Source: Styela clava (taxonomy: Eukaryota > Chordata > Ascidiacea > Stolidobranchia > Styelidae). From it: DNA of 64,000 bases. The stretch is taken from positions 21,948,001 through 22,012,000 of the forward strand of contig NC_135251.1 in the NCBI RefSeq assembly GCF_964204865.1. The letters are read 5' to 3'. The notes beneath the pieces were generated by a model that did not search any database, was not told where the DNA came from, and worked only from the letters and a program-made list of their open reading frames with translations. Below are positions 6,222 to 53,291 of the stretch, one piece after another. The first letter of the stretch is position 1, and every line of letters begins with the position of its first letter. Made by a program: the position numbers and the translations under genes.

Positions 6222-8637
6222 TCACGTGCGTTCTTCGTCAAGAAGTCCCTTTAAAAGTAATCCCATTTCTTCAATTTTAGTAATGGGAATTACAAAATCA
6301 CTCGCCGAAATGTCACTTTTAATAGAAAGTTTTTTACTTCTCACTGGTGAGCGAGTTACAAAAATATATCTTGTGTTTTCCTCGACGTATTCGGCGCAGT
6401 CGCAGTTACGGGATTTGAGGGTCACAGGGGATTTTCCTTTGACGCGTTTTAGTGATATTTGTCCTCGTTTTGACTTGATTAATTTCATGTTTCCCAACTT
6501 CCATTGCCTTTGTGTCTTTCGTTTTGATGGTGGAATTATTTCTTCAACAGTTGCGACGTACACTAAAAATACATAACTGTATTAATAATCTGTTTATATT
6601 ACACAGCGTGCAATTATCGATAATTTTTATTAAGATCAAACCATGTTTCGTTAAAAATCAATTCGAAATTTTAATTAAAAAGTAAAATATGAAAGCAAAC
6701 TCACCATAAACTTTTCCGCGTATAGCTTGGATTTTTTCTGCCGTGATTGTGCATTCTGAAAAAAATACAAACATTTTTTACAAATATAACAATAATTTCA
6801 AACAAGTATGATAAGACATTTCATAGTTATCTTACTTTTCATTTAATGTTTTATATTACCATACAACTATACTCACTTTGTTCGAATAAAGGACATTGAA
6901 TTTTTTCCACTGAATCTCCGTTACAATCATGAGTTTCTGGATAGTAAGGCTTTTTCCGACAGCATCTGTAAATTAAAATGTAATATTTTACAACCAGCAA
7001 TTTAAATTTCATAAAAGTAGTGAATTAAAAAACAATTGAGAATTTATTTTACCTTGCTCCACTGTTGTACGAAACGGCAGCTGAGACTTCATTAACGCAG
7101 CAAATCTGTGTGTCTGGGTCATAATAGTTGGTTCCAGAGTCGCAGCAGGTGTTTCCCAATAGTTTCAGACCTTTATAAAATTTGTAACCGCAGCACAAAT
7201 CAGCTGATGTATTGTAGATTTTACTGGAACCGCACATCGCTTCTTGAGGACCGAGATTGTAAACTCCTCCATTTACGCACACCTGTTGAAGAAAACACAA
7301 AATAAATTAAAATTCGATTGAAAACTAACTCCCAGGAAATCTGACAAGCTCAGTATATTGAGATCAAAATCACTTCGTTTAATTACACTATATATCCACT
7401 TTCAAAGTTAGTTGCACAACAAGTAATGAAAAATTACGTACCGTTTTGTCATCTCTTGTGTAAGGGGTTACTGAAACACCTCCTGACCCTGCATGGAAAC
7501 ATATGTCATTTTGATTCGGATCTGTTTTTTGATATAACTTGCCGCTGGCACACAGAAACGAAAACATGTCATATACTTGTGGTCGAGGCCCCATGCAACA
7601 ACCATGCGTCTTTGGATCGTAGAGTGGAGCTTTTCTTGAACTACCGCAGGATTTGATACCGGGACTAGCTGTTGAAAATAACAGAGAATTTATATTTTTA
7701 ATAGAAGAATAATTTTTAGGATAATTGTTTTTAATATGTAATAATAATATTTAGGACTTTGGTGAATGCACTTATAGTATTTATAATAAAATAGAAAATG
7801 AAAAAATAAAAAAAATGAAGGAAAATTACTTTTGTTATTGACTCGTAGAGCACCGTGTTCTGTATGGTCACAAGATTGCTTCAGGGGGTCGTATGGGACA
7901 TCTAAGCAACACCTTCCGTACGGTAATGCCGTCAAGTTTTGTCTTCTTCTACGCGGGTCGTTGTGTGTCTGAAGACAGCACGTTTGTTCTGACTTTTTAT
8001 ATTTGACCCCCGAACAACAAGAATCATCTGGCCCAGTCAGATATTCTCCTAAGCAACATTCACCACCTGTGGAATAGAAAAAATGTTCGTTTCAATGCGA
8101 GTAAAGATATCGTTGTTACATTGTTTGCATTCGTTCTGTCGACGAATGATTATGTAGTAAATTTTGTAACAAACAGAACTTACCTGGGTGCTTGTTATGT
8201 ATGTTTCCGTTGCAACAAACTTGTGATGTTGTGTTGTAAACGTTCTTACCGCAATTTAATTCTTCTGGTGCTCGCGCTCGTATTGCACCGTGAACACAAA
8301 TTTGATCAAGAATGTTGTACATTCGTCCAGAACCTAAGTAACAAAACAAAAAAATTTCGATATATATCGTGTGCTGGCGGGAAATGGTACACAATTAATT
8401 TACAACGTATTACATACCTTGACAACATTCGAAGCCGTCCCTCATAGAAAGTACTTGGAAGGTTCCTGGATTGGGCCCGTCACAACAAAGCAGTCCTTGT
8501 TTTCGGCAGGAAAATCTTTGATCTCCTCGATAGCATAAATTATTTTTACACGACAAAACAGATGGACTTGACGGTTTGGCAGTTGAAGTTCCCAAGAGTA
8601 GGTACATCAAAACACATATCATCGCTGCAAATAACAT
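6222..8637 (-). CDS. secreted galaxin-like/NTR-domain protein A (8 exons)
   Basis: Exons, in transcript order: 8637-8418, 8333-8184, 8066-7830, 7668-7442, 7282-7053, 6965-6877, 6755-6705, 6562-6222. All have GT-AG borders and sum to 1545 nt, giving 514 aa. The start has a signal peptide (MLFAAMICVLMYLLLGTSTA). Exons 1-6 are cysteine-rich, with repeated CC pairs such as LLCCDG, QVCCNG, ECCLG, TCCLQ, RCCLD, GCCMG, LCCGY, TCCDSG and ICCVN, as in galaxin repeats. The end of exon 6 and exons 7-8 form a netrin-like (NTR) domain: a KCTIT start, an AIRGKVYVATVEEI strand and a CDC motif. Exon 3 holds a basic DPRRRRQN stretch, a possible furin site, followed by an NLT glycosylation sequon. It is longer and more diverged than genes B-D. 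A matrix role is inferred; no enzyme motif is seen. Confidence 0.85.
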
Positions 8638-8870
8638 TTTGTCAGTACTGTTATTGAATTTTAAAATCTAAATGTGCGGAACTTTGCCGGAGGTCAGGGT
8701 CTTCTAACAATGAGGTAATATCTTGTGACTTGTAACACTTTTTAACGTCACTCCCAATTACAGAAACTAATTTCGCAGAAATTTAGTATCTAATGCTTCC
8801 TTCTAAGAAGACAGTTGTGCAGGCACTGAGGGCATTTAAAAGCAGCCGCATCAATGTAACGCCGATTCCG

Positions 8871-8882
8871 GTATTTATATAC
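8871..8882 (-). promoter_or_regulatory. candidate TATA box of gene A
   Basis: On the minus strand this reads GTATATAAATAC, about 235 bp upstream of the gene A start codon. That would leave a 5' UTR of roughly 200 nt. The evidence is motif and position only; no transcript start can be seen. Confidence 0.3.
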
Positions 8883-11800
8883 CGAGCAATTAATCTTTTT
8901 ACGCCATGAAAAAACGCCGGTTTTCGGCGTCATAAGGTATTTGTACGGGATGGTGCAATCCAAAACAACGATTAGGCAAGCGTCGAGTTGAAAAGAACGA
9001 ATGATAACAAACGCACGTGTCTTTGACAGCGCGTGTTCTCTCGTTTTACCGTTCGCTATATTTCATATTCAATGCACAGCACAATCAAATGAAAGGAAGC
9101 TTATTACGTTCAACACAACATATTATAGCGTTCAATACATAATTTAATTGAAGATACGCAATTGTTTCTGTATGATTTCTGATATATACGCAATGTATTT
9201 TAAAAAAATTTTTAAAACCTGTTGGCTAATAACTTTGTGATCGTATTTGTAGGTACAAGATATACCGATAAAACAACTTACCTATTTCACAGTTAGTCAT
9301 CTTTTCTGTTATAAGGATGTTCTCAGTTCAGTTAAACAAATTTCTGTATATCCCAAACCGCTTGTAGCAGGACCTGTGTTTTAGGACGATCACTGTTAAC
9401 TATTCTGCAAAAGGTAATGTCCGTCGTTTTTATATTTGTTTCAAAATATAGTCTGGGCCATTTCAGGGGACTTTTTTCGAGTGAGATCATTTGTCGTCAT
9501 CTACGTATTTTTATTTTTTATTGTACCAATACCTCAGATGAGATGAAAAGAATCGACTTGAAATCGAGATATCTGTGATTTGTTGTTTATGAAAAAGGCA
9601 TCTTTGTTTCACTTCAGTTTCGAGATACGCTAGACTGCACACCACGATTCAAAGAGAATGGAGGATAGACCATAACCACGCCGTGACGCGACCGGCTTTC
9701 GATTGCTTTCTGTCGGCGTTGTCTTTTACCTGGCGCTGGGGAAAGTTTTTGTAGTTTTCGTGGTATTGTGAGTGTGCTGAAGAAGTACAAGTATTAATTA
9801 GTATTCCACATGTGTTTTGGTATTTTGTAGTTATTGTATTTTGACCATGAAAGTTGAGTATATTTTAGATAAGTTTCAGTTTTAGCCGTGAATGTTGGAA
9901 CTGCGCAGAATGGATTTTACAAGGTAAATATGCCGATACCTGTTTACACAGCCCAGCAGCTAGACGGGATATAATCATCGGTACTGTTGTACTGAATTGG
10001 TGCGTACGGTATTATGCTTGTACACGTGAAAAAAAACTTAGTTATACTGTTATAGGTGAATAGTTCGCCCAGCCCAAATACTGGAATAAGATCGTTGGCT
10101 TATGTCATGTATATTATTCATTGGCTATTTTTATCATATTTAATCACGAGTTCTTGAATTAAACTACATTTAACCTGACATTTTATAACCTTCACACTTA
10201 TGTTGTAGTCTAATACAGTAATACTTGTATCAAGTTTTTTTCCAGTATTATCTGCGAACTTTAGGGTGTGTATGAGTATTATAAGTATATAAACACTAAA
10301 AATGAGATTGAACACAGGACCATAAATAACAATATCTAAAAATTGTTAGCTCATTTATTGTCATTTTTGTATTAATATAATTGCATTGAATTGAATACAG
10401 TATTTGGGTAATAGCCATCTTTAATCAGTTTGTTTATTTATTATTTGATGTGTTGCGATGTTGTTAGCCTAGCATATAAAATGTATTCATAATTAAAGTT
10501 TTGTTCATAACAATTCAAACATAATTTATCCTTTCAACATAAAAGTCAGATATATATCATTAAGCAACTGACTGACCTCTACAAGAATTTCTTACTGTTT
10601 GCCTTATTCTAGCACTGAAATGACAAGACTATATTGATGGTTTAAAAGTTTGATTAGAATGGAAATACCTCACTTGTGCTCTTCTCTATAGCTTTTAATA
10701 CGATCTACCTTTTTCGTTGCAAATATATGCGTTTGATATAAATTGCTGACATATTGTGCATTTTTCATAGATTTTGAGTGACTTCCATATCAAATGATAA
10801 CTACCGGTAAATTGTATGAAAATTACCAAAGGTCATGAATTTTTTGCAATTTAGTTTCTGGGGAACTATTGGGTCATTATAGCAATATTCAAGATGTTCC
10901 ACCTGTACCTGGTGGTTTGAAATAGGAAAGTCATCATATATTTTGTCGGTACCTCTCATCCTAAAATATCATACAGGGTTGGACATAAAAATGGGTTTGT
11001 ATTGGGATTACTTTGTCTATATAATTTGGACCTTTGAAATTTTAAATTGCTCTGATGCAAAATATACCATATTTATCTATATAGCTTGTTGTCACCCCTA
11101 AATTTTTTCCAAACTGGTCTCACTCTCAGGAAAAAGGCCTGCCGAATCAATCATGACTATATTGTTTATTTATGGAACCGCTTTGTGAAGGGAGTCAAAA
11201 AAGTTTTTGGAATGATCTATAATAGTTTTCAATGATTATCTGTTGTGTCTGTATTCATGAATATAAATTTAAAAAAATCAACTGCAACGTCATTTGGAAA
11301 TGAAACAAGTGCAATAATGGTTTTGACGAGAAAAATACTCAATAAATATATATAAATATTAACACCATTTCTGACCAAATTAAGGAAATATGCAAAGTAG
11401 TCCCTTGTAGGGGCTGATTCACAAAAGATAAATATAATTCTTACTGGTTAGAGAAGGGGGTTTTAATTTTATCAAAGTGGCAACCTGTTTTTTTTTCATA
11501 TCTCTATTTCTGTTCACTGAATTATCATATTTTAATTAAATAACCATTGCCCATAACACCTTACTCAGTTTCTACTCAATAGTACACACAAAACAGTGAG
11601 TATATCACATGGTAAATATTTTTGACATCTTTGGCAATAATTTATCCTTAAGCTAGGTGGAATAGAAATGTAGTTTAATTGGAGTTTGCTGGTTTCCAAT
11701 ATCTCAATAACTGACATTATTGCTAATATAAATATAATTGACATCTTTAAGTATTTCTAACATAGTAATTTTTGTTTTTTTCAAACCAATTGCCAATGGT

Positions 11801-15400: not shown

Positions 15401-18400
15401 TATCTCTCGTTCAATTTTGCATGCTCTATAACTTTGAATACAACGTTCGGTTCTATTGTATTCATTTTTTTTGTTGTGCCGGAATAACTTTTTTCTTGCG
15501 AAAACATTCTACTCTATCGATTTAACGCTTTTCTCATTTAACTCTTTTGAGTTGTCACAAATATTCCCCACCCTATCAAAAATGTTTACAAAAATTATAG
15601 AATTATTATTGTTGTTTGTGGAGTAGGATGTTGCATTGGAAGATTTTCTTTCGAAACTATGTACAACTTACAAGTGAAGTCGCATTTAATATATAAACCA
15701 TACAACTTTAGACTCGACACATATCTCAAAGCTATTCTCGAATGCTTTGACCCCTCGAATTAAATTGTAGACGCCGAGGAAAGTGTTCGACCTGTTGATG
15801 CAATCCAAACCGGCCCTTTCGTTACAGGTTTAACGCTGACGTTGCCCTTTGTATCCACTAAAGCGCGTTAACGTGTTCAACAAGAATGTCAGATTGCAAC
15901 ATCTATTGCCGACGGAGTTTTGAGATTGTTCTAGTCCGTTCTTTAGTATTTTAAAACTGAAATCATTACATCCTGTACGGTTTACACCCGCAAAAGGATT
16001 GCAACATTTATTGCGGAATGAGTTATAAAATTGTTCTAGTCTGTTCTTTCGTATTTCAAAACTGAAATCATTACATCCTGTAGTGTACAGTATCCATCCG
16101 CATTCTTTTTCGTGACTCAGTTGAGTTCGAATTCTCTTGGGTATAGATTGATTGCAAATGAAATATTTCGGACATATCAAGTGAAAATGGGTAATAATAT
16201 TTCATAAGCATTTCAATTTGTCAAGTTTCATTAATCCTCACCTGTGCAATATAACAAGGATTGTTGAATTAGAGTTCTTCCGGTTTACCGTGGTCGTTTT
16301 ATACAGACACTAAAAACTAGCCAGGTTTTGCAAAATGCATATTCTGGATTTAGTCAACCCAGTGGTTTTGAACCTTTTTGCTGGAGTGGAACCCCAATGA
16401 AACATCACAGTTCACAGAGACTTCAGAACCCCTGGATTTTACTGACGAAAGGGTGCAGCGGAACCAGGTTGAAAACCATTGAGTTAGACCAATAGTCCCT
16501 TGCTTATATTAATTACGGTATATTGGCTGCACGGGATTTTTTTCATGACCAACGTCGTTTTGGAGAATGTTTATAAGCTTTCTTGTGTTGTATGAAATAT
16601 CCTCCCTGTACGACGAAAAACTGCGCAACCCGTTGCTGCTAAAATTATACAACTTTTTATTTTGCACGCCATGCTCTTGTAGAGAGAAATATTTGTGGCT
16701 GAGGGGGCGACAATGTATATTTGTCCCCGGTACTTTCCACTGTTTGCTCTCGTGCGCGCGTTTTAGCAGTGAACAAATATATGCTGAGCCGAATAGAACC
16801 CACATTGAATTTGAAAAAGCTTCGAATTGCAAATGTGGGAAACTTTTATGCAAATCTATTGAAACTGTTTATTACTTCTATGCAGTTTCTTTTTGGTAAT
16901 GTAGTAATTTCGTAGCAGAATTCAATTGAGAAAACATCCCCAATGTACGATTATTTTGCGAGAGAATGTGTTTGGATATTTTCTCATATTGCTTCTTATT
17001 GTGTCATAAGAGATTTGTATGAGCGTGGGCGCTCACCTTGCCAGGCTTATAGATATAAAACAAGGTGACTGTAAACAAAATAAACACAACTTCGGACGCT
17101 CGATCCGTGGCCATTGTCCGTCCGCCTACGCATTATCGTTATTGCGGTTCAATCATTGTATAAAATGAAAAAGCAAGCCAATTAGTGTTCCTATAAACGC
17201 GAGTTGGAATTATACTATAATTTTTACATGGAAATTACTGGTTTATTTTGTACAACCATAACTTATTGGTGCTTTTTTTTTAATGCTCGAACGAGCTTTT
17301 ATGCCGCATACATCGCATCTGTAGCATCGATAGGTAAGCAGGTTAACTCGAGTAGCAAGTTTTAAGTTACGCTAAATTAACGTTAATTTAATTCTTCTAC
17401 CTATCGCGTGGGCGTTTTTAAACAAGGTGTAGCGTGCAAGCGAACTGCTTTCTTCTCTGACCTGACCCAAGGGTTTATTTCAGCAAGTGAAACTAAACAA
17501 AACCTTCCGAAATCTACAATTGTAATAACAAAAAGCACGGTTATATTGACATGTCGAATCGTCCTGTTCTCCTCTAAAAATGATAGCGAGTCTCAAGTAT
17601 TAGGATTCGATATAGGATATCCCCGTATTGTTAGTTGATACAGCGTATAGCACCTGGGACTTATGTGGCTTAAAGAATACGTGTAAACAGTATTCGCTTT
17701 TGGAGTGTGTTCGTGGCAGTTCAAAGGTTAAAAAAGTCCATGTTGCATTTCTCCTGTTTCATAATGCCTGGATATTTTACTCTATATTATATTCAGTTGC
17801 ACAACACTGAGAAATTGAAACACTTTGATGCCTCTCACCTCGACTATTAATATACTATCTCATTATATGATCACAATTTTTGCAAGAAATGGTTTTATCA
17901 ACCATTCTGGCTTTACTATTTTAGGTTGGAGTGTCCGCCTCATTTGTAATTCTTAGTTTGCCACAGCCCACGAGACTAATTTAAGTTTTGTACGTACGTG
18001 TGGAAATGCTTTAGAGCTGACTGTTAACCGATGAGCTATTCTATTTTCAATAATTTGCTGAACATTTGGTTGAAGGCAAATCATATCAATAAAGTTTAAT
18101 TTAGATGGGGTAACACAGTTCGACAACCTACGCCAATAGGGTTGAAAAAGCATTTGTCTTCATTCTCGGTAACACTGCAGCACTTATGCGAAAGAAATTA
18201 TTTGCTCGATGCAGTATTGGTAAAAGCAAAATTGATGCGATGACAAAAACTGTTCCATGACAGGAATTCATTCGACTATTGAACAGGAACATTTTTCATA
18301 ATAATATTAGTTTCGCCATTTGTCATCCAAGATTAGGGTAATTAAACAAAAACCGTGAATCGTGAGAAAGTTCATAGAACCTGAAAATGCAAAATTTCAT

Positions 18401-24400: not shown

Positions 24401-24536
24401 TACATCGAATACTCCCGGCAGCATTACTGTGAAATCTTCGCAGTCACCAGCACCGAGTGCTACACAATTGAGAGTAAAGAGTGAGATGAGCGATAATATG
24501 AAACAACCTTTTGAAAAAAGGACTAAATATGTGTGA
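12454..24536 (+). CDS. MED6: Mediator complex subunit 6 (MED6), 7 exons
   Basis: MED6 is a head-module subunit of the nuclear Mediator coactivator, which links activators to RNA polymerase II. Exons: 12454-12472, 13690-13858, 14100-14191, 22943-23025, 23404-23443, 23951-24138, 24270-24536. The sum is 858 nt (285 aa), all in frame with GT-AG borders. Family-typical stretches are [96 protein letters not shown] and [15 protein letters not shown]. The C-terminal exon is Ser/Thr/Gln-rich and poorly conserved, as in animal homologues, and ends KRTKYV. Exon 1 codes only MANPEK plus one base; its start has a good context (AAAATGG). Exon 2 has two in-frame acceptors 6 nt apart. The gene ends tail-to-tail against CSKMT, and its last codons lie inside a tandem duplication. 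Confidence 0.95.
15892..16083 (-). repeat. 105-bp tandem repeat, two copies, open in one frame
   Basis: GATTGCAAC at 15892 recurs at 15997, and the following sequence, including CTGAAATCATTACATCCTGT, is repeated with a 105-bp period; the second copy is incomplete. On the minus strand both copies stay open in one frame (15830-16180) and give a 35-aa repeat with GCNDFSF and NKCCN-like blocks. Because 105 is a multiple of 3 the frame is kept automatically. Coding is therefore only a possibility. Confidence 0.6.
16360..16481. mobile_element. hAT-type MITE (122 bp)
   Basis: Terminal inverted repeats read CAGTGGTTTTGAACC at the left and GGTTGAAAACCATTG at the right. The inner sequence includes GGAACCCC and GAACCCCTGG, typical of this widespread miniature hAT type. 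It is non-coding. The flanking 8-mers match only partly (AGTCAACC / AGTTAGAC), so any target duplication is decayed. It lies within MED6 intron 3. Confidence 0.65.
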
Positions 24537-24933
24537 CAGAACTGACAATTGAGAAGGCGTGTAGCCATGTTAGCCACTATGCTGCTAAACTCAACACTTC
24601 CAAATATTTTTGCATTAGATATTTGCTTGTTCATGATTTCTTTTTATCAATATACAATGACCACAGTTCAGAAACATGACAAATGAAATGTTGCATTAAG
24701 ACTTGCTTACAGTGTACCTTTTGAAAAAAGGACTAAATATGTGTGACAGAACTGACAATTGAGAAGGCGTGTAGAGCCATGTTAGCCACTATGCTGCTAA
24801 ACTTAACACTTCCTAATATTTTTGCATTAAATATTTGCTTGTTCATGATTTCTTTTTATCAATATACAATGACCACAGTTCAGAAACATGACAAATGCAA
24901 TGTTGCATTATTTTCTAAGACTTGCTTACAGTG
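24506..24933. repeat. tandem duplication of the MED6/CSKMT shared 3' region
   Basis: Copy 1 (24506-24715) and copy 2 (24716-24933) both start ACCTTTTGAAAAAAGGACTA and end GACTTGCTTACAGTGT. They differ by a 2-bp and a 6-bp indel and only a few substitutions. Each copy contains the last codons and stop of MED6 on + and the last codons of CSKMT on -. MED6 uses the stop in copy 1. CSKMT uses the stop in copy 2 (24917-24915). The high identity suggests a recent event. Confidence 0.9.
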
Positions 24934-25576
24934 TATAAAAAATAGTCCCTCACAGATGTAAATTGCTGACAGGAAATGCTGATATTAGAAGTAATATCAT
25001 CTGGTAACCTTTTGGCAGCTTCTTGTAGAAGGTCGATGCGCAGTTCTGGTGGTTCGTCTGTCACTTGTATTAAAACTCCATCTTTGCATAATATTTTATA
25101 GATGTTTGCCAACGCTCTGCTTGCTAGTTCAGTTCCTTTAGGTTGCTTTAATATAGAATCTGTAGTACCTTTATCCAGTGCTGCACAGATACTTCCTGTA
25201 GAGAACACTTGTTGCTCTGCTATATTAGCATGAACAAGAGTGCAGTTTCTGACATTATCAAATTTTGAGTTTCCATCCATTTTGTTTTGAAGCCTCCACA
25301 GTGAATCGATTGCAAAATCCAGACAGTATACTTCAACATCTTTCAGATCATATGCAATGTTTGCCCCAAAAGTTGAGTCTCCGCAGCCTATGTCCAGCAA
25401 GTATGGTTTTCTGTTACCTGGATTATCTTGGGCACTCAGTGCAGTTCTTATCATAGGTAGAATGGAATCCTTCAGATCATCATAATTTGCAAACCATTCG
25501 AAATCTGGGTTAGGTTTAGTGGTTCTATAGAATTGATTCCATGTGTCTAACAATCCAAGAGATGAGTTTATGGAAT
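24915..25576 (-). CDS. CSKMT: citrate synthase-lysine methyltransferase-like domain, probably fused to NME6
   Basis: This is a class I SAM-dependent methyltransferase resembling CSKMT (METTL12), which methylates a lysine of mitochondrial citrate synthase in mammals. Visible motifs are FEWFANYDDLKDSILPMI, the SAM-binding LLDIGCGDSTFG, VYCLDFA, the family-typical ALDKGTTDSI and VLIQVTDEPPELR. The open frame continues upstream to 25631, but only through intron sequence and with no ATG; the first Met after the acceptor (CACAG at 25577) lies inside the domain. In frame with the NME6 donor at 25670 it gives ...FHWDK-NSINSSLGLLDTW..., a joint protein of 382 aa. The alternative is a separate mRNA in an operon with an unseen start. 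The stop lies in the second copy of a tandem duplication. Confidence 0.85.
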
Positions 25577-25646
25577 CTGTGAAACAATGTGATTTAATAG
25601 TGAGAATTTGTGTGCAACAGAAACTAACCAACTTATATGAAATGTT

Positions 25647-26321
25647 TTAATGAGGTGGTATAGCCTTACTTTTATCCCAATGAAATTGTGTGTTTGTGTT
25701 ATACTCTTTGGTGGAAGCAATGTCGACTGTGTTTTCCCCAAAAATTATCTCGATTTCTCTGTTGGCAGATTCTTCAGAATCTGATCCATGTGTAGAATTT
25801 CTTGTGTCTGTTAAACCATACTCACCCCTCAACGAGTATGGTTCTGATATATTTGCCTGTGAACATAATTGCAAACATTAATAATATGTATCACACAACC
25901 TGCTTATGTTGTTGTGGAAGCGAATTGGGAGCAATATTTTTCTTTCGCCAACAAGATTTACTGGACTAGGTATGCAACAGAATTCCACATTGTAGTTACC
26001 CCCAATCCGAAAAAACTTGACCTTAAAGACTTTCGTTGGACCCATTAGGCTGCGCCAAACTTTTATAGAATCTTGTCCAGCAAGCACTAAAGCAATTACA
26101 GGACCACAAGTAATGTAATCCAGAAGTCTTTCATAGAAGAATCTCTCACTGTGCTGGTTGTAAAAAATCTCAGCATCCTTTCTTTTCCAGTGAACTGTTT
26201 TCTTTCTCAAAATGCGCAAGTTGTTTTTTGAAATACGATCGGTAACTGCTTTCGTTGCGATGGGATTCAGGGCAATATCTGGCTTTAACAATGCGAGCGT
26301 TAATTGAGTCTTTGATGACAT
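25647..26321 (-). CDS. NME6: NME6-like nucleoside diphosphate kinase, 5' part of probable NME6-CSKMT fusion
   Basis: Exon 1 is 26321-26022 (100 codons) and exon 2 begins at 25856. The product matches the NME6 group of NDP kinases, which in animals is linked to mitochondria. Visible blocks are LTLALLKPD (the KPD motif), RRFFYERL-like ERFFYERLLDY, SGP-like TCGPVIALVLAG, VWRSLMGPTKVFK, and LRGEYGLTDTRNSTHGSDS with the active-site His in STHGSD. Read without further splicing, exon 2 ends at a TAA (25649-25647) after KAIPPH. A good donor (GATAAAA|GTAAGG, 25670) lies just before that stop and joins in frame to the methyltransferase exon at 25576. I therefore think the annotated stop may be intronic. 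There is no space for an independent start of the downstream domain. Confidence 0.88.
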
Positions 26322-26711
26322 ATTTCATGACTACGCAGTAATCTATTATAATTTTAGGTCTAAATTCAAATATGAAGACAGAAATATTTCAATACAAGAC
26401 TACAATAGTAAATGATATTTATCCAAATAAAGAAAAACCATCAACAAGGCAAATAAACCACTGACATTCATTTTTTTACATTATAGTTTGAGCATGCGAT
26501 TAATAGATGTGCCAAATGGACAAACAAAAGTTTTATATCAACAGTCCCTGTGCATAAGCTGATAAAGTAATGGCACAACAAGCTTTTAATTTTAGATATT
26601 TTTGCTTAAACATGTTTTTATCAACAATTATCTTTGAAGAGTTTTGTCATACTCTGTAAACCAGCAAGCGGTGAAAACATTTACTTATGTTTGCTAACTA
26701 TATATAGTGAG

Positions 26712-26717
26712 TTTATT
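26712..26717 (-). terminator. candidate polyadenylation signal of NDUFB4
   Basis: On the minus strand this reads AATAAA (AAATAAA context), about 160 bp past the NDUFB4 stop codon. Motif and position only. Confidence 0.35.
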
Positions 26718-26767
26718 TTTCTCTGCAACTGGAAAAGAAATAAATGCAAAAACATGTATAACACATA

Positions 26768-26842
26768 CAGGGTGAGCCAAAAGTAGGGCAACAGTTATTA
26801 CAATATCAACAATTAACTGTTACCTCAATTTGGCCCACCCTG
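26768..26842. mobile_element. short foldback MITE (75 bp)
   Basis: The arms CAGGGTGAGCCAAAAGTAGG and its partner at the right end (AATTTGGCCCACCCTG) are inverted, with inner halves AACAGTTA / TTAACTGTT also paired. It lies between NDUFB4 and NME6. Both sides have ACATA-like flanks, offset by one base, so the target duplication is unclear. Confidence 0.6.
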
Positions 26843-26874
26843 AACATATATTTTCACACACACGGGGATATGTA

Positions 26875-27471
26875 CTAGTCCATCTGGGCTCGACTATTGA
26901 TACTGGGGTGCAGCGCATGAACATTCTTTTCCATTTTTCTTCGAAGTCCTAACTCGCTATAAGTAAAATACACAATAGTGAGTATTAGGACAACAAATGC
27001 TTTGAAGTAATCATTTGCAGACAACCACTTCGCTGGGTCATCCAGTGTGTAGTAAACACTTCTAACTCTGTTGAACTTTGCAAACATAGGATCGGAAGTG
27101 ATAAGATTAAAATATCTCCAATTAGTGGGATGATACTTCTTTGTCCAAAATTCTCGCCTTAGTCTTCCACGAATCGCTTGCCTCTTTTGGTGCGCTTTCA
27201 GATCCTCCGGGGTCACATTTTTACAGTTTTCGGGGTCAATTTCAGCCGGCATATCATGAGCCCAATCAGCTCTGAAGTCTTTGGTAGGAGCTAAATATTT
27301 TGGAAATAGTTGTTCACCCATAACTTCCGAGTATTGCTTATAATCGATTTGTTTCTCCAACTTGCCATCTTTTGCAGTGACGGATGGTAATGTCGAAAAT
27401 CTTTTATTAGAACAAAGATCCATCATGGCCCTGCAAGCAGGGTAAGGCACCTTCAATCTCAACATCCTCAA
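26875..27471 (-). CDS. NDUFB4: NADH dehydrogenase (complex I) subunit B4-like
   Basis: A single-exon frame of 198 aa. The middle resembles NDUFB4/B15, an accessory subunit of the mitochondrial complex I membrane arm: EIDPENCKNVTPEDLKAHQ, then RQAIRGRLRREFWTKKY, comparable with the [30 protein letters not shown] region of the human subunit. Near residues 160-180 there is one hydrophobic segment (FKAFVVLILTIVYFTYSELG) followed by basic residues, as in the family. The protein is longer than the usual roughly 130 aa because of an N-terminal extension. That extension starts MRMLRLKVPYPACRAMMDL and looks like a mitochondrial presequence. It is on the same strand as NME6-CSKMT, about 550 bp upstream. 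The family call rests on remembered similarity, so is moderate. Confidence 0.7.
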   Translation of the reverse strand: MRMLRLKVPYPACRAMMDLCSNKRFSTLPSVTAKDGKLEKQIDYKQYSEVMGEQLFPKYLAPTKDFRADWAHDMPAEIDPENCKNVTPEDLKAHQKRQAIRGRLRREFWTKKYHPTNWRYFNLITSDPMFAKFNRVRSVYYTLDDPAKWLSANDYFKAFVVLILTIVYFTYSELGLRRKMEKNVHALHPSINSRAQMD

Positions 27472-28578
27472 CGGCTATTTTGTAACAGCGGTAACACCGT
27501 ACCGTGCCCTTCGTACAAGATAACCAAATCCGTGAACACATCACTGCCGTCCTTGGGCGCCGCTAGTGGGCCAAATCAGACCCTTGACCCTAAAAAAATT
27601 CTTCCTGCGAACCCAGAAAAATCGTCACTATACTAACTACGGGCCTTACGCGTTTTTCGCGATTTTAAATTCTATTCGTTAGTTTTCAGTTGTGTTTTGA
27701 AAACTTAAATATAAATCAGATAATTCAATGATCACTCTGTCTTCTTAGGAGTTTTAATTTTATTGCAGTAATAAAAAATTAGTGTAGAAATAGCTGTGAT
27801 AGACTAGGCTAAAATTACCGGTACCTTTAAAAAACAGATTGTTGTATGCGATGAATCATAATGATGGTTTGAACCTCAATGTTTGAAACACATACCCCAT
27901 TTTACAGGCATCAACTCGTGGAAGCACTCTTAAAATAGCCCCGAGAATATTGCAATGGTAAGGTAAAGGAAGGATTTTTCGAGGGTCAAAGGTCCATTGC
28001 AAAATTTTTGAAGCTTACTTTGAGAGTGTTTTAGAGAGTCAGCGCTTACAAACTAGTCTACCTATTCAAACCAATATTATTCTCTGTGATTGGACCACGT
28101 GTCGCTCACAGAATCTGATAGCTATTTTTAGCCTAACCTATCGCAGGTTTTGCGTGACTAATTTTTAAAATTACAACTAAACTCCTTGAAAGAATACGAC
28201 AATTGAGTTATTTGATCTACAACTAATTTAAAATGAAAAGGTTAAAAACTGACATATAACACACAGAGCTACGATAACAAGGCAATGTTGCAATGTTTAT
28301 AACCATGCTTGAATATCTGTCTAAATAAAATTTATAAATGCACTTAACGCCGGTAGAAAAGTTAGGATGGCCCTGTGAATCTATATCTACAAGGTTTGCA
28401 TTGCAACTAGCCTTTTAAATAGAGTTTGAGGCCTATCTCAAATCCGACTTCTCAGTGCTCGAATAAACACATGCTGTGGTTCAACTGTACATATTCAAAA
28501 CGGCGCAGTTACTATCTCATAAAACGCGACTGACCACAAAGTATATATTTCAACTTTACCGCCTTTGTTAGTTTAAAT
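27472..28578. other. intergenic upstream of NDUFB4
   Basis: The first 150 bp above the NDUFB4 start is less AT-rich (CCGTACCGTGCCCTTCGTAC, GGGCGCCGCTAGTGG) and is the likely promoter and 5' UTR. Nothing else was recognised. Confidence 0.4.
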
Positions 28579-29055: not shown

Positions 29056-29063
29056 GTTTAAAT

Positions 29064-33606: not shown

Positions 33607-36600
33607 ATGGCAGTTTTATTGAAAGTTTTTTTTCTTGAGTTAACAATATGTGGTAAGTTTTTTTGTTATTAGTACTATTAAGATATCACAAGTATTAGCC
33701 TATTAACTTGAACAGTCTTATGTCGATTTGGTTAGTATGAAACTTAAATTCATTTAAATTTCGAACCCGGCAATACTATGGTCCGCTCGATTGAACAGTC
33801 AAGCCAGCAATTTATGAATCAAGGGTAAACAACGTACAAAGAGCTTACGAACAGTCAGTACATACTTTCAGGACAGTCGTTTAGGCTCGGAACCCTTGTT
33901 GAAGTTGCTGTCAGAAACGGTGCTATGCTTAGCGATATGAAATTTGATAAGATGAGCTCAAATTAACTCATGATTCGATCAAATATTAAAAATCAGAATT
34001 ATTGTCCCTAGTGGCCATTTTTGCTTAATTACTATCGAATTTGGCCCTGATACAAAATTAGAACAGCCTTGAAATGTATATTACAGATGTAGATTAGGAT
34101 AGGATATACTTTGTAATTGAGATTTAAAACAAAATAGGGATTGCCAATTACTGCTTCCGTTGAATAAATAACGTTTGCTGGCTTTGTACCTTCAGAGTAG
34201 CAAATTAACGCGGTAAAAATTTCCGTCTTTTCTCTGAAAAGAAATATTTTTTGTAATGAAATAATGATAAGGAAAAATAATAAGGATAAGGATAAATAAG
34301 GAAAATTTGGCTCGTATCGAAAACTGTATATTTAACACTTGCCAGCAAATTTATCGAGTTTGAGAATGTTCTGTGGAATATAGTAGCACGTCGGTCAATT
34401 TGGACAGAAACCACTTGCCGGCTATGCGGAAATTCCAGCTGGAAAGTTTTTATGATGAAATCGTAATGAATAAAGATTTCGCAAGAGAAGTTCTGTTCGT
34501 CAGAAGTCGATATTTCTGCGCTACGTAGAGTGCTTTCTGTAAATGTTCACACCGTCTTTCATTCATAAAAAATCTCAGCGGCTTATTCAAGCGTGAATAC
34601 GAGTGAAAAACCAAACAAAAGTGTGAAGTGTACTACGAATTATTGCTGTAATGAAGTCCTAAATTTATTCATGTTTTAGTGTGATGTAAGGTAATGAGTG
34701 ATGAATGGGGCCGACGTGTTTTTTTTGATATACCTGTTTTTAGTGTTAGATCTGAATTAAAAATTTACCATATGACCCTAAGTTAAATTTAAACTAAATA
34801 TAAATCTGGTGAAATTTTGTATTTTAGGTTTTTTAGTGGCATCGACAACGGGTAACGAATCTTCAAATAGAAATGATTACAAATGTACACGACCTGGAAT
34901 TTGCATCGATGGTACGGGAAAAGAGTTCAGATGCGTCGTTAAAAATATGGAATGTTGCTTGAATTCACAAAACATACTCAGTCTTTACCAAGCACCACGA
35001 GGAATGACATGCTGTGGCGGTAAGTTATACACGAACTAAAATTAAGGAGCTGCTGTTGACAGTAGTTAACACCGTGTGGGATCCATACGTTCACGCATTA
35101 TTTCATTCATAAAATCTCAGCGATTCATTCAAGCGTGAAGGCAGGTTATAAACAAACCACAATGGTGACGAAGTATAGTTGCAGTAGGAGCTATGGCGAA
35201 AAGTTCACAAACTCGTTTAGGTATTCATGTACAATAAAGCATATTGTAAGAATTCTGTACAGAAACAAAAATTACCTATATTGTGATTGATTTTTTAGAA
35301 TACAACAGCACTACTTTATTTATCTATCGAAATGTTTTTTATCGATTTTGATACTTTTGTGCTAAACATGCCGATCCTTTACAATTCAGGGGATGGAATG
35401 TTTCATGAACAAACACATGATTGTGTAATAAATGAAAAAGGAGATGGGGAAATACAACTTCGAGAAAATGTCATATTTTGCCCCGGAACTGAAATGTATT
35501 ACAATCCCTCGAGTCAATTTTGTAGTACCGGAGAAAGTGGAAAAACTGAAGTTTTGATGCTGAAAGGTATGAAATATTGTAAGCCAGGCCAAGTCTTAAC
35601 TAAAAAGAAATGATGTGTTGCTAAAATACACTCGCTGTCCAGTATGCTTGATTTTACTGAAAGGCGTCTGATATTAATTACCCTTTGTTTTTTTAGATTA
35701 TTCCCTCAACTCAGCATCGCCATACACCGACGTTAATAGGCCTTATACTTGCGTAAGCTCGCGAGTATGCTCCGATTCATCAGGACGACGGTTTAAGTGT
35801 ACTGAGAAAAATGTAGAATGCTGTTTGAATAGTTTCAAACAGCTTGTTTTCTCCAACGCAAAAAGAGGAATGACGTGTTGTGACGGTAAGCATTGGCACC
35901 AAGTTATACCGTATATATCAACTAAAAATTTGTTCTTTTCTGCCAACTGCAACATTACTTCACAGTAACAATTTTTAAAGCAAATTCATAACAAAATGTC
36001 CTTTCGTAAGTTGATCCAAATGATGACCAGTTGTATCGTTGTAATACAGGAGATGGAATGTATCTGGAACAAACTCAGGAATGTGTTGATGGTAAAATAA
36101 CGCTGAGAAAAAACGCTATAGTTTGTCCTGGCACGGAAATGTACCATAACCCCTCATCTCAGATCTGCTGTACGGGTAGCAGTGGACTAACTGAAATACA
36201 TATGATTGAAGGTAAGGTGCATTTATTTTCCGTGAAATATCAAAAATCATTATTTTTATATTGAATTTTATCCTACTTATTGTACCAACTTTGTAGATGG
36301 TAAACTATGTTGTGGCACAAACTACATTAAAAACTCTACTACGGGTTGCTGCTCCGAAGAAGCATATGACAGAAAGGCTGAATGCTGTAAAAATCGAATT
36401 AAGGCTCCGGCTAAAGAATGCGTTGACCCAACGGGAGATGATTCGAGAAAGAATTCGAGATTGAAATGCACAAAAGAAACAGGTGAGAGAAAATTTCATT
36501 GCAAACTGAACTTACACCACAATGTTTTTATTGAACTAACCCTATTATTGGCCTGAAAACTTGCAAGTCTTAAAAATGAAAGAAATTTTATTTTCAGTTT

Positions 36601-37164
36601 CGCTATTCCAATAAATAGATTCATAAATATTGAATAAATCTTTTTTTCTCAGTATGTTCAGATAGAGATATGGAGAAACGATCGAAGTCATTTAATCACT
36701 GGTCTTACAGTAAGTTTCATTTGATATTTATTTTACTAAAATAATATTTGAATCGCCCGAAAAGTAACGAAAACACTATTTTGAATTTTGAAGCGGGAAA
36801 TATGATTGTTGTTTTTTCATTTTAAATAATTTTAATGAATAATTGAAAATGAAATTTTTTTTTGCATTTTCTTATATGTTTTTATAATTTTTCAGTGTAC
36901 ACATTCGAAGTAAGCAGGTTCAAGCGAGAAACTGAAACTCATCTAGTATACAGAGTTAAATTATGTAGACAGTTTATTGGAACAAGACGCAAAAAGATTG
37001 GAACCGAACAATGCAACTTGAAATATATTGAAATACCCAGATGTGAATGCCCAGGACAACTTGTGCCTGGCGTTAATTATGTTCTACGTACAAGACAAAA
37101 ACTCAATTCTAGAAGAATGGTGTTGAACGGAAAAAAGTTTTATATCTCCCAAAATAAATTGTAG
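33607..37164 (+). CDS. secreted galaxin-like/NTR-domain protein B (8 exons, duplicated modules)
   Basis: Exons: 33607-33652, 34828-35019, 35390-35566, 35697-35885, 36050-36211, 36297-36482, 36653-36709, 36896-37164. The sum is 1278 nt, giving 425 aa; all borders are GT-AG. Exon 1 and the start of exon 2 encode a signal peptide (MAVLLKVFFLELTICGFLVA). The modules run a (exon 2), b (3), a' (4), b' (5), c (6), and then the NTR domain (7-8). Module a has KNMECCLN and PRGMTCCG; b has GDGM, CPGTEMY and ICCTG; c has GKLCCG, GCC and AECCKNR. The NTR part starts VCSDRDMEKR, continues YTFEVSRFKRETETHLVYRV and has the CECPGQLVPGVNY motif. All introns are phase 1 in the module region. Exon 3 has lost one Cys of its CC pair (QFCSTG against QICCTG). 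A function in extracellular matrix is inferred only. Confidence 0.9.
34546..34597. repeat. mini-foldback repeat, copy 1 (intron 1 of gene B)
   Basis: It shares TTTCATTCATAAAA and TCTCAGCG plus TTCAAGCGTGAA with 35090-35139 in the next intron. Its left end (TTCAC) is less well preserved than the right. Confidence 0.5.
35090..35139. repeat. mini-foldback repeat, copy 2 (intron 2 of gene B)
   Basis: A 50-bp unit bounded by TTCACGC and GCGTGAA, an inverted pair. It is similar to 34546-34597 in intron 1. Confidence 0.5.
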
Positions 37165-38685: not shown

Positions 38686-38697
38686 GTATAGAGAGAC

Positions 38698-40440: not shown

Positions 40441-40441
40441 A

Positions 40442-40447: not shown

Positions 40448-40664
40448 GTACCTAATGTGTTATAATAAATCACTGGCAGTTTCACTAGTATGAACAGATA
40501 ACGCCTTTGCACGAGTTAACCGGACATAATATGAATTGGAGCTGTTTGTGGACTTGACGAAATTTAATTTATCCATATCATACGTATTATTGGCTTATAT
40601 GAATAAATATTTAAAGTGTTAATTAACAAGTAGAGGCACAAATTATAAATTGTACTTGAAAGTG

Positions 40665-43379
40665 TTATAAGTGAAAAACTTTCGCAAAAACATCTGTTGA
40701 ATTTACGGATAAAATAAAGTATTTATTTCCATGCAAAAACAATTTCTTAAAATATACTTTTGTTTTTGTTATTACAACATAATCAGTCCCGATACGGAGA
40801 TTTTTAGGACACCCACATTTAGGTAAACCAACGATTTTTAAATTCTTTTCTACCGTTTTAATTTTTCCTTTCTTCCCGAGCAGTTGTTTTCCGTATTTTA
40901 CTTTGTAAATTTGGTGAGATGATGTTTCGCCTTTTATTCTTCCTACTTGAAATGTAAACACTGGGGAATAAGATATGAAAACTATTTTTATCATTTTTCA
41001 AAAACTCGAAATACGTACATGATTAATATATACAATAAAGTACTCACTGTACGCCGCCATATGCCGATGCAAATGGAATCTTTTTTCCATAACAAGAGAA
41101 GAACAAACTAAAACGTAGAAAGCATTATATAAAAAAGATTCCAGAAAATGGTTTAAAAATTAATGGGAATTATGAGTCAAAAGAAAGCATAGTTATGGTT
41201 AAAAGAACTAAAGAATAATCAGATAGTTTATAGCCCGTTATGTATAAAATTAAATTTATTGACAATTATGCCTCATTGAGTATGAAGTTCCTGATTCTTT
41301 CCGTTACAATGTCCAAACAGCAAAATGATTGACAAAATAATCGCAATTTATCCCGTAAGTTAGAACGATATTTAAATGAGCTTAAAAGCATCAACTCGAT
41401 TTTGGCTTTTTAGTAGGAATTTCCAAGAATTTTTTTTTATAATTGATTGATTAAAGGAATAAATCGACTGAATTTTTTTTAATTTAGCTGCAGTAATGAA
41501 GAGCGGCCCAAAATGACAGAATTTCAATATGAGTGACGTAGTATGTAAGTAGAGAAAAATTTTCATGGATTAATGGTCTTGAAAATATCCATACGATGTA
41601 ATAAATATTCAAATTCAATAGTATAGAAACTAATTACAAATGTAGAAACCGCTATCGATTATAATTTAATTTTACTATACCTCGTTTTGTACAGTTTGTT
41701 TCACCAAAAATTTTCGAATAATTTTGAGACTTGGTATTAGATAATCCGTGACACTCTCGTATTGGTGATATCAGACTTTTATTTTTGCAACAGAATATAT
41801 TTTTATCGTAGCTTGTATCATTACAACATCCCTTATAATCAGAATGTACGTATTCAATGCCACAACACATCTTTAACCCTGTATACATAAATAAGTGCTA
41901 CTTTGGTATGCGATCTCACTTGCTTTAACGTTATCTTAACCGCATACCAAAGTGGTATCAATTGTGGTGCCACTTTGGTATGCCTCCAATCGCATAAAGA
42001 CATTCTCATAGAATTCAGTTCCCAATCCGGTCTGAAATCACACAGACCATACCGAAGTAGCACCCACAAATATATGTAAAGAAACTTAATATTTTAACAA
42101 TATAATCACTTTGAAAATTATAATAAAACTAATGGATGGATGGTTGATTAAGAAACCAGAATGGGCTCATATTTGAATTGTCTGTAATTTATGTTCGTAT
42201 TCGTTTATATGTATATATATTATTAATATTAATTCAGTAATTTGGAGGGAACATGACCATATTTACCGTATTTGTCAATCTTGAAATTTTCATTTACCTT
42301 CTGTTAGATATTGCATTGATTGATTACCCCCATGTAACGTGCAGCATGTCTGCGTATCTTGATTATAGAAACTATTTGATCCGCATGGTAGCACATTTTT
42401 TCTGTTGAGTAGTGCTCCATTAACACATTTGTGAGTTTGAACGTCGAATATGCCCGCACCTGATTAAAATGTTGCAATTGATACAGTATTTTAAATTCTA
42501 ATTTTGGTTTATTTTTATGCTTGGGTCTGATTTATGTACTTTAAGCACCTTCACAACATTCCTTTCCTCGAGGATATTCCTCAACTGCCAAAGTTGCATT
42601 ATTTTTCCGACAACATTCAACATTTTCTTCTGAGCATCTGAATGTATTGTTGTTCACATCAATGCAAGAAAATGGTTTCAAGCATCGAAAAGGTTTCCGT
42701 CTAGCACAAATGACATTGCTTTCTGTGTTAAATATTAAAATATGGAATTAGGCAAGGCAATCCTTTACGAAATTTTACTCGAGAACCTTGTTTGTACTGT
42801 GACGAGATTGCTTGCCCAAGGCCCCACGGGAGAGAGAAAAGGAGAGAGCAGTCAACCGTTACTGGAAATACCCGTCCGTTCCCACGCATATTTATTATTG
42901 ATCAATAGTTTTTGCATCTTGCTCTCAGAACTAGACTCGAATTCGTCTTTAATGGGAAATTGCATCTTTTCTATGCAAAAGTTAAAAATTCGATAAACAT
43001 GCATATGAAATGCGCTTAGTCTTTAGGAATAAGATTTGTGGGCTTCACGATTTTATTTTTCAATTTTAACATGTATTTGTATATTTTAAAATAAATTTTG
43101 CATTATAGCAAAAGGAAAATTAAAAAAATATTTCAACATAAAATCTTATGATTTCAATGTTAACGTGCACTAAAAGCACTTGAAAGCAAACATCAATAAC
43201 GTTTAGATTTTATTGCCTTAATTAATATGTGTCTAATTTTCATGAAAATTGCATGTGTGAATATTCCACATGAAGCAAATTTCACACAGACGTATATTAA
43301 ATCTTCAGTAAAACATTCACGTACCTCCGTATATCCACAGCCCGCAAAATACAAAAAAGAAGACTTGTTTGAATACCAT
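40665..43379 (-). CDS. secreted galaxin-like/NTR-domain protein C (6 exons)
   Basis: Exons, in transcript order: 43379-43325, 42722-42549, 42459-42298, 41878-41681, 41107-41048, 40960-40665. The sum is 945 nt, giving 314 aa; all introns are phase 1. Exon 1 encodes a signal peptide (MVFKQVFFFVFCGLWIYG) found by frame and donor match. Exon 2 is module a (RCSEENVECC, PRGKECC), exon 3 module b (GAGIF, KCVNG, TQTCCT), exon 4 module c (KMCCGIEYV, KGCCND, FCCKNK), exon 5 the linker VCSSLVMEKRF, and exon 6 the rest of the NTR (FTFQVGRIKGETSSHQIYKV, PKCGCP). The exon layout is the same as gene D. Compared with B and D, the two middle NTR cysteines are both missing (VKYGKQ and VEKNLK instead of VKLCRQ and TEQCNLK). 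A MITE lies next to the acceptor of exon 4. Confidence 0.88.
41895..42063. mobile_element. foldback MITE in gene C intron 3
   Basis: The terminal inverted repeats are GTGCTACTTTGGTATG at the left and CATACCGAAGTAGCAC at the right. The interior holds another inverted pair (CGCATACCAAAGTGG / CCACTTTGGTATGCC). The left end stops only about 14 bp from the acceptor AG of gene C exon 4 (41878). Confidence 0.75.
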
Positions 43380-50030: not shown

Positions 50031-53000
50031 TTAAAAAAGGTTATTGCGGGTAATATAGTAATTTTTCCCATCCAACATCAACTTTTTCATAACTATTTTT
50101 TGTCTTGTTTTTAAAATATAATTGAATCCAGAAACAAGCTTTCCAGGGCATTCGCATTTTGGAATGTCGATGAATTTCAAATTGCATTTCTTTGTGCGAA
50201 TCTGCTTTTTTCGCTTTCTTGTACCAGTGTATTGTCTGCAGGAATTTGCTTCATAAATAAGATGAGTTTCCGTTTGTTGATTGAGTTCACCAACAGTGAA
50301 TGAATACACTAAAAAGAAAACACAATTTCAGTTTACGTACACCATAAAATCATGCGGGACAAATACACGAGAAAAAATAGCTAAAGAAATTTATTGAAGA
50401 TAGAAGAACTCTTGAGTTTTCACCAGCTGATAACGATTTGATTAAAATGTTGGAATCTGGTAAAACTTGATTATCACGCAGCTGAAACAAAAGGAATAAA
50501 GAAACTAGCTTTACGGTAATTCAAAATAAATTAGAATAGCCAAAATCAAACTTACTATATGAAGGCTTGTGTGAATGAGAGTGAAATGTTTTCTCCATAA
50601 ATTCCTCTGAACATTCTGAAATAAAGTTTTATTTAGAAATTCTGATTAGAATATTGCATTAAATCAAGTAACGGAAAGTTTTAATATAATTTCTATTTAA
50701 TAATTACTATTTTAGTGTAAAAAAAAATCAGATAAATTTATTATTCCATAATAATTCTCTATATTTTTATAACTACTAGGCACTACAGTAGTGGATACGA
50801 AAACTTCTCTTACCTAGTTCTTTGTGGCATCCTATTTTTTCAAAAACTTCATGTTCTTTCGAACAATCTTGAGCTGAAACTATCATTCTGTTTTTGCAAC
50901 ATTCTGATTTCCTGTTGTATTCTTGACCATTACAACATCCCTTCGTTGAGTTTTGTATATAATTTTCTCCACAGCAAACTTTACCATCTAAGTTTAAAAA
51001 TTTCATTTCATTTATAGTAATATATTATTCAGTTAAAAAAAAAATACGGAGTATATCACAACTGAAAGATATTCTCTCAAATACAAATCCCACACAACAG
51101 AAAATTGTTCGACATAACAGACTATAAACCGGTGGAAAATTGAAATGAAAATCGCTTCACAATGGGTAGTTTAAAAAAAAAACGGCCTTATTTTATCTTA
51201 TAGGGAGAGGGCAAAGAATCTACAATGAAGAAAGGTAAATCTATACTAACAAATTTAAGTTGATTCAATCATTCAGCGTTGGTCATATCAGAGAAAGATG
51301 TCGGGGCTTTTTTCTTAATTAGAAAATTGTTTCATTCAAAATGTGTTTCGTCTTAATTTCTTACCTTCAAGTAAATGAACTTTCGTCTTCCCACTTTTGC
51401 TTGTGCAGCATGTCTGTGTTTTCGTGTTGTGCCATTCATCTATTGTGTTAGGACAAGTTCTAACATTTAGTCGTCGAACAATTTCTCCATTAACGCATTT
51501 TTCTATTTGCTCGTCAAACATACCGGCACCTATACACGAAGTAATAGATAGGTAGATAGTAGTTAGATTGGTGTGTGAATGAAATATTAAACGGTGGCCG
51601 GAAATTTGTGCCGCGTACACGTTAGTCGTACAAGTGAGAAGTTATATGAAGTGCTGTTAATTGAGTATCAGGAGATTACAATTTCATATGATATAGTGAG
51701 TTAGCATGGTGATAATATACATTTATTTCATGCACATAGAGCTGATAATTTTTGAATATATAAGTCAAATCTTACCTGGGCAACAAAATTCCCCTCGTGG
51801 GGCATTGAATAGAACAAATTGGTCTTCTGTTTTTATATGGCAGCATTCAAGGTTTCTTGTAATACACCTGAATTCGTTGTCATTTTCATCGTAGCAAATT
51901 CCTGCTGATTTACATTTGTATACAGAGATATTATCTGAATCCGGTCGAAACGTAGGCAACGCATTGATTCCTGAAATGAATATTTAAAATAGTCCAAGTG
52001 GTCGGAAGATTTAAATTTTAAAATAGCAATTAGATATGATGAATTGTCATAATAATAATAATGACGATCTTAATTATTATCACTGCCATTTAATATTTCC
52101 ATGGCAATATCAGGTACAATACGCTCTCACATCTCGCGGCTGTGAGCACTCGAGCGTAAAGAGGCAAACAAAATTCTTCTTTGAATGGAAAGTACCGCTA
52201 AGCGAAAACGTTATGTTAACTGATATATACCAGAAGTTGTAATCACTTGTCTAGCTTAATGAAATTTAAGTTGAATCGGCAGCTTTTACGATAACAGGTA
52301 ACGGGCGGATAATATAATAAGTCTGACTTCAGTTTGCTTATACTTCGCTAATTTGGAATAATCACAATGCTAGTTATGTGGCAAACACACATACGAGTAT
52401 ATAGGCCTACTGCGAAATGGCAGTGAAATGTCACTTTCATATTATCGCTATTCATTCAAGTCATTCGCCTAACGTTACTCTAATTTTGACGTCCTATGAA
52501 TTGTAACGTTTCTAAGTTGGCCATTCATTTCTATACCGGTTGTAAATTTTCCGCCCCATTTTAACGAAAAACATCGAATTAAAAAAAAAATTATTCGATT
52601 TCAAAACCCTTTTAATGCCATTTTTTAAAACTTAAATAAACCATCTGAAGTCTTACTCTCTGATTCGATCATTACCTCTGTCACTCGTTTTCAGTAATAT
52701 ATCGATGAAGATATCATTAACAAACAAGATTTTTCGTATCGGCCACGGCATTTCCAGAAAACAATTGAATTTCGTCCGTTCGGTACAATATATATCACAA
52801 GAAAATGTCTTTTCGAAATCAGACTCACGAGGTACATTCTTTATGACTCCAACTTTCAAATTTCGAGATTTTTTGACTTTTAAAATTCGTTATAGACTGG
52901 CTGCTCACGATATTTTCGACAGCGAATGTCAGATATAATTTTCAAAAACCTCACAACGATCATACCGGCGTCAGTATACTGGAAGCAAGCAATTCCTACA

Positions 53001-53291
53001 TTCCATAAAAATCTCAGCAAAGCATCGTTAAATATCGTACAGCGAGACACTCACATCTGCCCACCGAGCGCGGATTTTGCGAGTGAAATGAATTTATTAT
53101 TCGTCAAAGCTCGCGGCGAAGGAAGTTTACTTTACACACAGCGGATTTGCGCTTAACCCATTGAGTCGTGATGCGACGAACAACGCTTGTCGGAACTTCA
53201 TAATAGAAGATCCGAAGTGTTATAAATAATTTCAACAAGGCAATGGCGACTCACCTCCCAGTAAGATAACCATGAATTTGAAAACGTCCAT
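50031..53291 (-). CDS. secreted galaxin-like/NTR-domain protein D (6 exons)
   Basis: Exons, in transcript order: 53291-53255, 51970-51776, 51529-51365, 50987-50814, 50615-50556, 50308-50031. The sum is 909 nt, giving 302 aa; all introns are phase 1 with GT-AG borders. The signal peptide is MDVFKFMVILLGGINA, split by intron 1. Module a has EFRCITRNLECC and PRGEFCCP; module b has GAGMFDEQ, KCVNG and TQTCCT; module c has GKVCCGENYI, KGCCNG and SECCKNR. The NTR starts ECSEEFMEKTF and runs YSFTVGELNQQTETHLIYEA, SCRQYTG, KKCNLKFID and KCECPGKLVSGFNY. It is closest in layout to C and in NTR sequence to B (ETETHLIY/ETETHLVY, ITRNNL/ISQNKL). A matrix or adhesion function is inference. Confidence 0.88.

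Follow-up and report, generated by a model that had tools for sequence, protein, structure and literature searches.

Four Styela clava genes joining galaxin-type di-cysteine modules to a probable netrin-like C-terminal domain

Introduction

Coral galaxins, known from Galaxea and Acropora, are secreted proteins with repeated di-cysteine motifs, and we describe here four genes of similar make, A, B, C and D, in a 64,000-nucleotide stretch of the ascidian Styela clava (NCBI RefSeq assembly GCF_964204865.1, contig NC_135251.1, positions 21,948,001 to 22,012,000 of the forward strand; this whole stretch is called the window and is numbered from its first letter). The secretion of their products is predicted from a hydrophobic N-terminal segment, judged by eye, in all four translations. 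Cysteine makes up ∼12–13% of coral galaxins (PMC2726143, PMC4890752) as against 9.9–11.2% of the di-cysteine parts of A–D, and Acropora digitifera galaxins have 13–19 CC pairs as against 6–12. Galaxin genes are found in local pairs or triplets, which resembles the local A–D set, and the calcarins of Sycon ciliatum are likewise galaxin-like, tandem and diversified by duplication (PMC12419799). For calcareous sponge galaxin-like proteins the same paper predicts beta-hairpins joined by di-cysteine disulphides, and it also describes large sponge proteins in which fibronectin III and laminin EGF domains surround a di-cysteine region; these share with A–D the joining of such a region to other extracellular domains, but they have ∼5000 amino acids and other partner domains. 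The terms "netrin" and "NTR" are absent from its main text. What distinguishes the S. clava genes from the coral galaxins is that B, C and D use specific modules (a, b and c) and that all four carry a C-terminal netrin-like (NTR-like) domain, which goes unmentioned in the excerpts of galaxin literature examined. Most of what is known about galaxins comes from the skeletons of corals and, more recently, from the spicules of sponges.

The described counterparts of the C-terminal domain would be those of netrins, PCPE (PCOLCE), sFRPs and complement C3–C5, in which an OB-fold module also stands at the C-terminus after other extracellular domains (in A–D the fold is only likely). Proteins of the NTR/C345C family carry CUB, laminin-EGF, frizzled or thioester domains where A–D have di-cysteine modules, and a CxC(P) ... 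G..Y motif is typical of the family; a stretch like it, SCCHKLRPYRHYLLMG, is present in the exon of this genome that best matches the Pfam NTR profile PF01759 (L009). The C-termini of A–D are too diverged from this family for a match at the curated threshold. NTR domains are reported to anchor the proteins that carry them to heparan sulphate proteoglycans (PMC11567036); that of netrin-1 has been tied to heparin binding, although the filaments induced by heparin do not depend on it (PMC9984387). In another paper a C345C domain appears in the figure of an agrin-like protein, and the galaxin-like proteins are separate (PMC7853314). A first-pass annotation of the window, made by a model from the letters and their open reading frames (ORFs), had proposed that A–D combine galaxin-like and netrin-like parts and knew of no named family that does so. 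No protein joining a galaxin repeat to an NTR, netrin or C345C domain was found in the literature searched (excerpts including PMC7853314, PMC6697025 and PMC9100110, with most subscription journals outside its scope). The architecture may nevertheless exist unremarked in other animals.

Gene models and kinship

The models of the four genes, assembled by script from exon coordinates, derive from sequence alone. All of them assemble with GT/AG borders at every intron and a single terminal stop, which confirms the four-gene observation of the first-pass annotation: gene A (minus strand, 8637..6222) has 8 exons and 514 amino acids, gene B (plus strand, 33607..37164) 8 exons and 425 amino acids, gene C (minus strand, 43379..40665) 6 exons and 314 amino acids, and gene D (minus strand, 53291..50031) 6 exons and 302 amino acids. 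The modules with CC pairs that had been proposed are borne out too, with 12 pairs in the di-cysteine part of A, 8 in B, 6 in C and 6 in D.

Genes C and D do share one exon plan, namely predicted signal peptide, modules a, b and c, a short "linker" and a last exon with the NTR-like domain and the stop. These exons are located at 43325..43379, 42549..42722, 42298..42459, 41681..41878, 41048..41107 and 40665..40960 in gene C, and at 53255..53291, 51776..51970, 51365..51529, 50814..50987, 50556..50615 and 50031..50308 in gene D. All were placed by assembly, supplemented by splice phase for the signal-peptide exons, by module profile search for the a, b and c exons, and by the CxC motif and a profile search for the last exons. 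In gene B the a–b pair is repeated, as had been claimed: after the signal peptide come module a (34828..35019), module b (35390..35566), a second a (35697..35885; 26/62 positions identical to the first), a second b (36050..36211; 35/53 identical) and module c (36297..36482), all placed by assembly, splice phase and module profile search, followed by the linker (36653..36709; assembly and splice phase) and the last exon with the NTR-like domain and the stop (36896..37164; assembly, CxC motif and profile search). The first exon of B is not contiguous with its module a exon, and a scan of 7.3 kb upstream for donor and hydrophobicity gave four candidates. The best one, the predicted signal-peptide exon at 33607..33652, is the nearest of the four to exon 2 and combines an ATG and a hydrophobic run of 15 amino acids with a phase 1 GTAAGT donor. 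A TATA-like box precedes the ATG at −86 in B, −92 in C and −80 in D; the upstream stretch inspected for gene A showed no such box. The 17 introns of genes B, C and D are without exception in phase 1, so that modules a, b, c and the linker are symmetrical exons in these genes.

Gene A proved to be longer and diverged, as proposed. Its intron phases are 1,1,1,0,2,1,1, with phase 1 at the outer boundaries and phases 0 and 2 within its extra part. Exon 1 (8418..8637, with a phase 1 GT donor) contains the signal segment and module a, exon 2 (8184..8333) module b, and exon 3 (7830..8066) a di-cysteine region in place of module c; exon 4 (7442..7668) is an extra di-cysteine exon with no clear counterpart in B, C or D, exon 5 (7053..7282) holds a second module b and a galaxin repeat, and exon 6 (6877..6965) ends the di-cysteine region. 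Exons 3, 4 and 6 were placed by their splice sites. The linker (exon 7, 6705..6755) and the NTR-like domain with the stop (exon 8, 6222..6562) complete the gene. When modules were compared pairwise, variation was greatest at third codon positions in 20 of 21 cases; in the remaining one, the short linker compared between D and B, the three positions were equal. Together with the splice borders and the uniform phases of B, C and D, this shows that the four are real coding genes, under constraint at the protein level.

When profiles of the B, C and D modules were run over the 1620 ORFs of the window, gene A ranked next after the training exons for module a (exon 1, expect value (E) 0.0072), module b (E 6e-7) and the last exon (E 0.004). 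Because cysteine spacing can mislead, the di-cysteine module tests were repeated on shuffled sequences with the cysteines held in place. Only 9 of 3000 such shuffles scored as well as exon 1 against module a, and none of 3000 did so for either exon 2 or exon 5 against module b; the likeness of exon 3 to module c was not distinct (118/3000). The results for modules a and b therefore indicate that A is a real relative beyond its cysteine spacing, distant and collinear with B, C and D, and carrying two copies of module b. The last exons of B, C and D are 38–54% identical to one another and 17–20% identical to that of A.

We found no convincing fifth copy within 80 kb on either side, where, among 7536 ORFs, nothing outside the four genes scored better than E 0.23. 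In the 376.6 Mb assembly, searched by scoring the best candidates only, all 15 matches of a B-type query at E ≤ 1 fell within B, C and D, and 8 of the 9 matches of the A query fell in gene A, the ninth being a weak one (E 0.27) in a galaxin locus on C10. Relatives as distant from each other as A is from B could escape this search, because the A and B queries each missed the other's genes.

Galaxin-type region

The Pfam galaxin profile PF24748 (curated cut-off 28 bits) gave 79.5 bits for A, 35 for C, 28.3 for D and 26.2 for B, so that three of the four proteins exceed the cut-off and B falls just under it. The best stretch in A spans residues 226–369 and takes in exon 4, and exon 5 has an exon-level match (C2:21955073-21955288). 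As controls on the di-cysteine parts, none of four reversed sequences matched, and one of six cysteine-fixed shuffles, a shuffle of C, reached 26.4 bits. A second profile, made from seven modules of the other galaxins of this genome, gave A 64.8 bits, a score equalled by none of 1000 cysteine-fixed shuffles, B 6.6 bits (3/1000), C 14.2 bits (12/1000) and D −2.7 bits (124/1000); resemblance beyond cysteine spacing is clear for A, weak for B and C, and not seen for D taken by itself. The shuffle of C calls for caution over the Pfam scores. According to these profiles, the predicted protein of gene A is without doubt of galaxin type. For B, C and D the case is weaker and rests mostly on their kinship with A, since the Pfam scores that they reach themselves lie within or close to the range attainable by cysteine spacing alone; the galaxin-like character proposed for the whole set thus stood directly for A and by kinship for the rest. 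The di-cysteine parts have isoelectric points (pI) of 6.0–8.5 and net charges of +8 (A), +6 (C), −2 (B) and −3 (D).

Two further galaxin loci are present in the same genome, at C10:3457400-3471880 (L013-L014) and C5:11118980-11124160 (L016-L017). One of the di-cysteine exons at C5 is matched by the profile of module c (E 0.0016), and this module is therefore not specific to the A–D family. In 30 kb around each locus, the C-terminal profiles of the window found no convincing NTR-like exon. Only two matches had E ≤ 1, C10:3482365-3482511 (E 0.01, on the opposite strand and ∼10 kb past the last listed di-cysteine exon) and C5:11125428-11125634 (E 0.058, also on the opposite strand), and both were taken as chance. 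Because these two weak, opposite-strand matches were all that the loci gave, the NTR-bearing form of galaxin looks special to this window. At C5 the last di-cysteine module is followed by a Gly/Arg/Pro-rich stretch.

C-terminal domain

Exons 7 and 8 of gene A, taken alone, match PF01759 with 18.4 bits (E 0.0019), below the cut-off of 21.9 bits, and none of 10 control sequences of A matched NTR. Without exon 7 the score drops to 13.7 bits, and for this reason we assign the "linker", which also supplies the first cysteine in all four proteins, to the start of the C-terminal domain. The short linker exon of the first-pass annotation is present in all four genes and belongs to this domain. The CxC(P) motif that had been noted is only partly general, CxC being found in all four domains and the following proline in B, C and D, with alanine in its place in A. 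Two further cysteines occur in B (36896-37164) and D (50031-50308) only, both being absent from C (40665-40960) and from A, and this joint absence hints that the two may form one disulphide. The four domains are strongly basic, with net charges of +12 to +18 and pI of 9.7–10.1.

The profile searches and structure prediction that the first-pass annotation had suggested gave a divided answer. PF24748 passed its cut-off in three of four proteins, and PF01759 found only the isolated domain of A, below its cut-off. The low-confidence model of A retrieved complement C345C rows in VIA-align that span the whole model, and no confident beta-barrel was obtained, the mean predicted local distance difference test (pLDDT) values of the predicted structures being 46.0 and 52.5. 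Several results speak against an NTR assignment: PF01759 matched none of the whole-length A, B, C and D proteins at E ≤ 1 and none of the isolated domains of B, C and D at E ≤ 10, the domains did not match the netrin-type exon of this genome, many non-NTR chains ranked beside or above C345C in VIA-align, and the best Foldseek rows were ribosomal and other chains with E ≥ 0.17. Taking profile and model together, the C-terminus is probably of NTR/C345C type. The NTR-type C-terminus proposed for the four genes thus gains some support in A, from the sub-threshold match and the weak C345C-like fold, and B, C and D are linked to NTR only through A.

Possible function and alternatives

All these data incline us, if not strongly, to read A–D as a locally duplicated tunicate family of secreted, disulphide-rich, galaxin-type matrix proteins whose basic NTR domain would serve as an anchor. 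The N-terminal region would probably be made up of short, disulphide-held beta-hairpins that withstand extracellular conditions, and the linker and last exon would form a strongly basic OB-fold domain of NTR/C345C type. As in PCPE-1, this basic domain could tether the protein to matrix proteoglycans or sulphated polysaccharides; the disulphide-rich region could build the scaffold or cross-link it, the tunic and the surroundings of hemocytes being possible sites. Such a matrix and docking function is plausible. If it is true, a tunicate galaxin-like family with a C-terminal anchor would connect di-cysteine scaffolds with polysaccharide-based matrices in a way open to test. With its uniform phase 1 introns and module boundaries that coincide with exon boundaries, the set would also make a concrete case of exon shuffling. 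A bolder proposal, which we make tentatively and consider more doubtful, is that "anchored galaxins" are a class of the tunicate lineage that arose when exon shuffling at phase 1 introns brought a galaxin-type disulphide scaffold together with an NTR domain able to bind polyanions, yielding a dedicated set of tunic or spicule matrix proteins. This would be a route for tethering a widespread animal di-cysteine matrix module to sulphated polysaccharide in cellulose-making animals.

The part of the favoured reading most exposed to challenge is the fold of the C-terminus. It is possible, if improbable, that this is another small beta-rich or OB-like domain in which the CxC(P) motif and the basic charge mimic NTR; the absence of Pfam NTR matches for B, C, D and whole-length A, the lack of a match to the netrin-type exon, and the Foldseek and VIA-align rankings would all agree with this, but it has to contend with the PF01759 match of the isolated A domain, not reproduced by any control, and with the complement rows that span the whole A model. 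A different use of the same architecture would be in immunity: A–D could be secreted immune or antimicrobial factors whose galaxin-like part acts on microbes and whose basic tail binds polyanions of microbial or host surfaces, duplication and divergence then reflecting host–microbe conflict. Because the squid galaxin-like protein EsGal1 has been reported as antimicrobial (PMC7853314), this is a fair rival, and a galaxin transcript among mussel hemocyte responses (PMC6697025), the basic C-terminal domains and the strong divergence of the paralogues, above all between A and the others in the last exon, also speak for it. We still hold it to be unlikely, as the predominance of third-position changes shows constraint. 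The proteins could also regulate extracellular proteases or processing enzymes, with NTR as a TIMP- or PCPE-like inhibitor or enhancer module and the di-cysteine region as a spacer. NTR modules do occur in TIMPs, but the TIMP inhibitory ridge needs the N-terminal cysteine of the mature protein, whereas A–D all have the NTR-like domain at the C-terminus. Even with the presence of NTR modules in PCPEs (PMC11567036), we regard this last role as very improbable.

Host genome and neighbouring features

Elsewhere in the assembly, an exon at C9:16179895-16180164 (L035) matches glycoside hydrolase 6 (E 1.5e-6) and lies close to an exon that is, by eye, rich in membrane segments. Tunicates are the only animals known to make cellulose, and the only ones known to have a membrane cellulose synthase with a glycoside hydrolase 6 domain. 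The two neighbouring exons are as expected for the tunicate enzyme and support a tunicate as the host. A search of the assembly for COX1, intended to show the mitochondrial code, did not find this gene.

Three long intronless ORFs of 148–243 codons each lie between gene A and gene B, setting A apart from the other three genes, all on one strand (24915-27474, minus): an NDUFB4-like one (PF07225), an NDK-family one (PF00334) and a methyltransferase-like one (PF08242, under its cut-off). Directly downstream of the last of these is a tandem duplication of 212 bases (24506-24910; 1.9 copies, 96% matches). An ORF with CC pairs at 15833-16201 (minus strand) was considered as a further relative of A–D and rejected, since Pfam searches at E ≤ 0.01 found nothing in it and the module profiles did not match it in any meaningful way; it contains a repeat of 105 bases (15892-16082, 1.8 copies). 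Comparison with viral and prokaryote collections confirmed none among 36 and none among 25 pattern stretches. Beyond gene D, at 57838-57883, there is a perfect ATC microsatellite of 15.3 copies.
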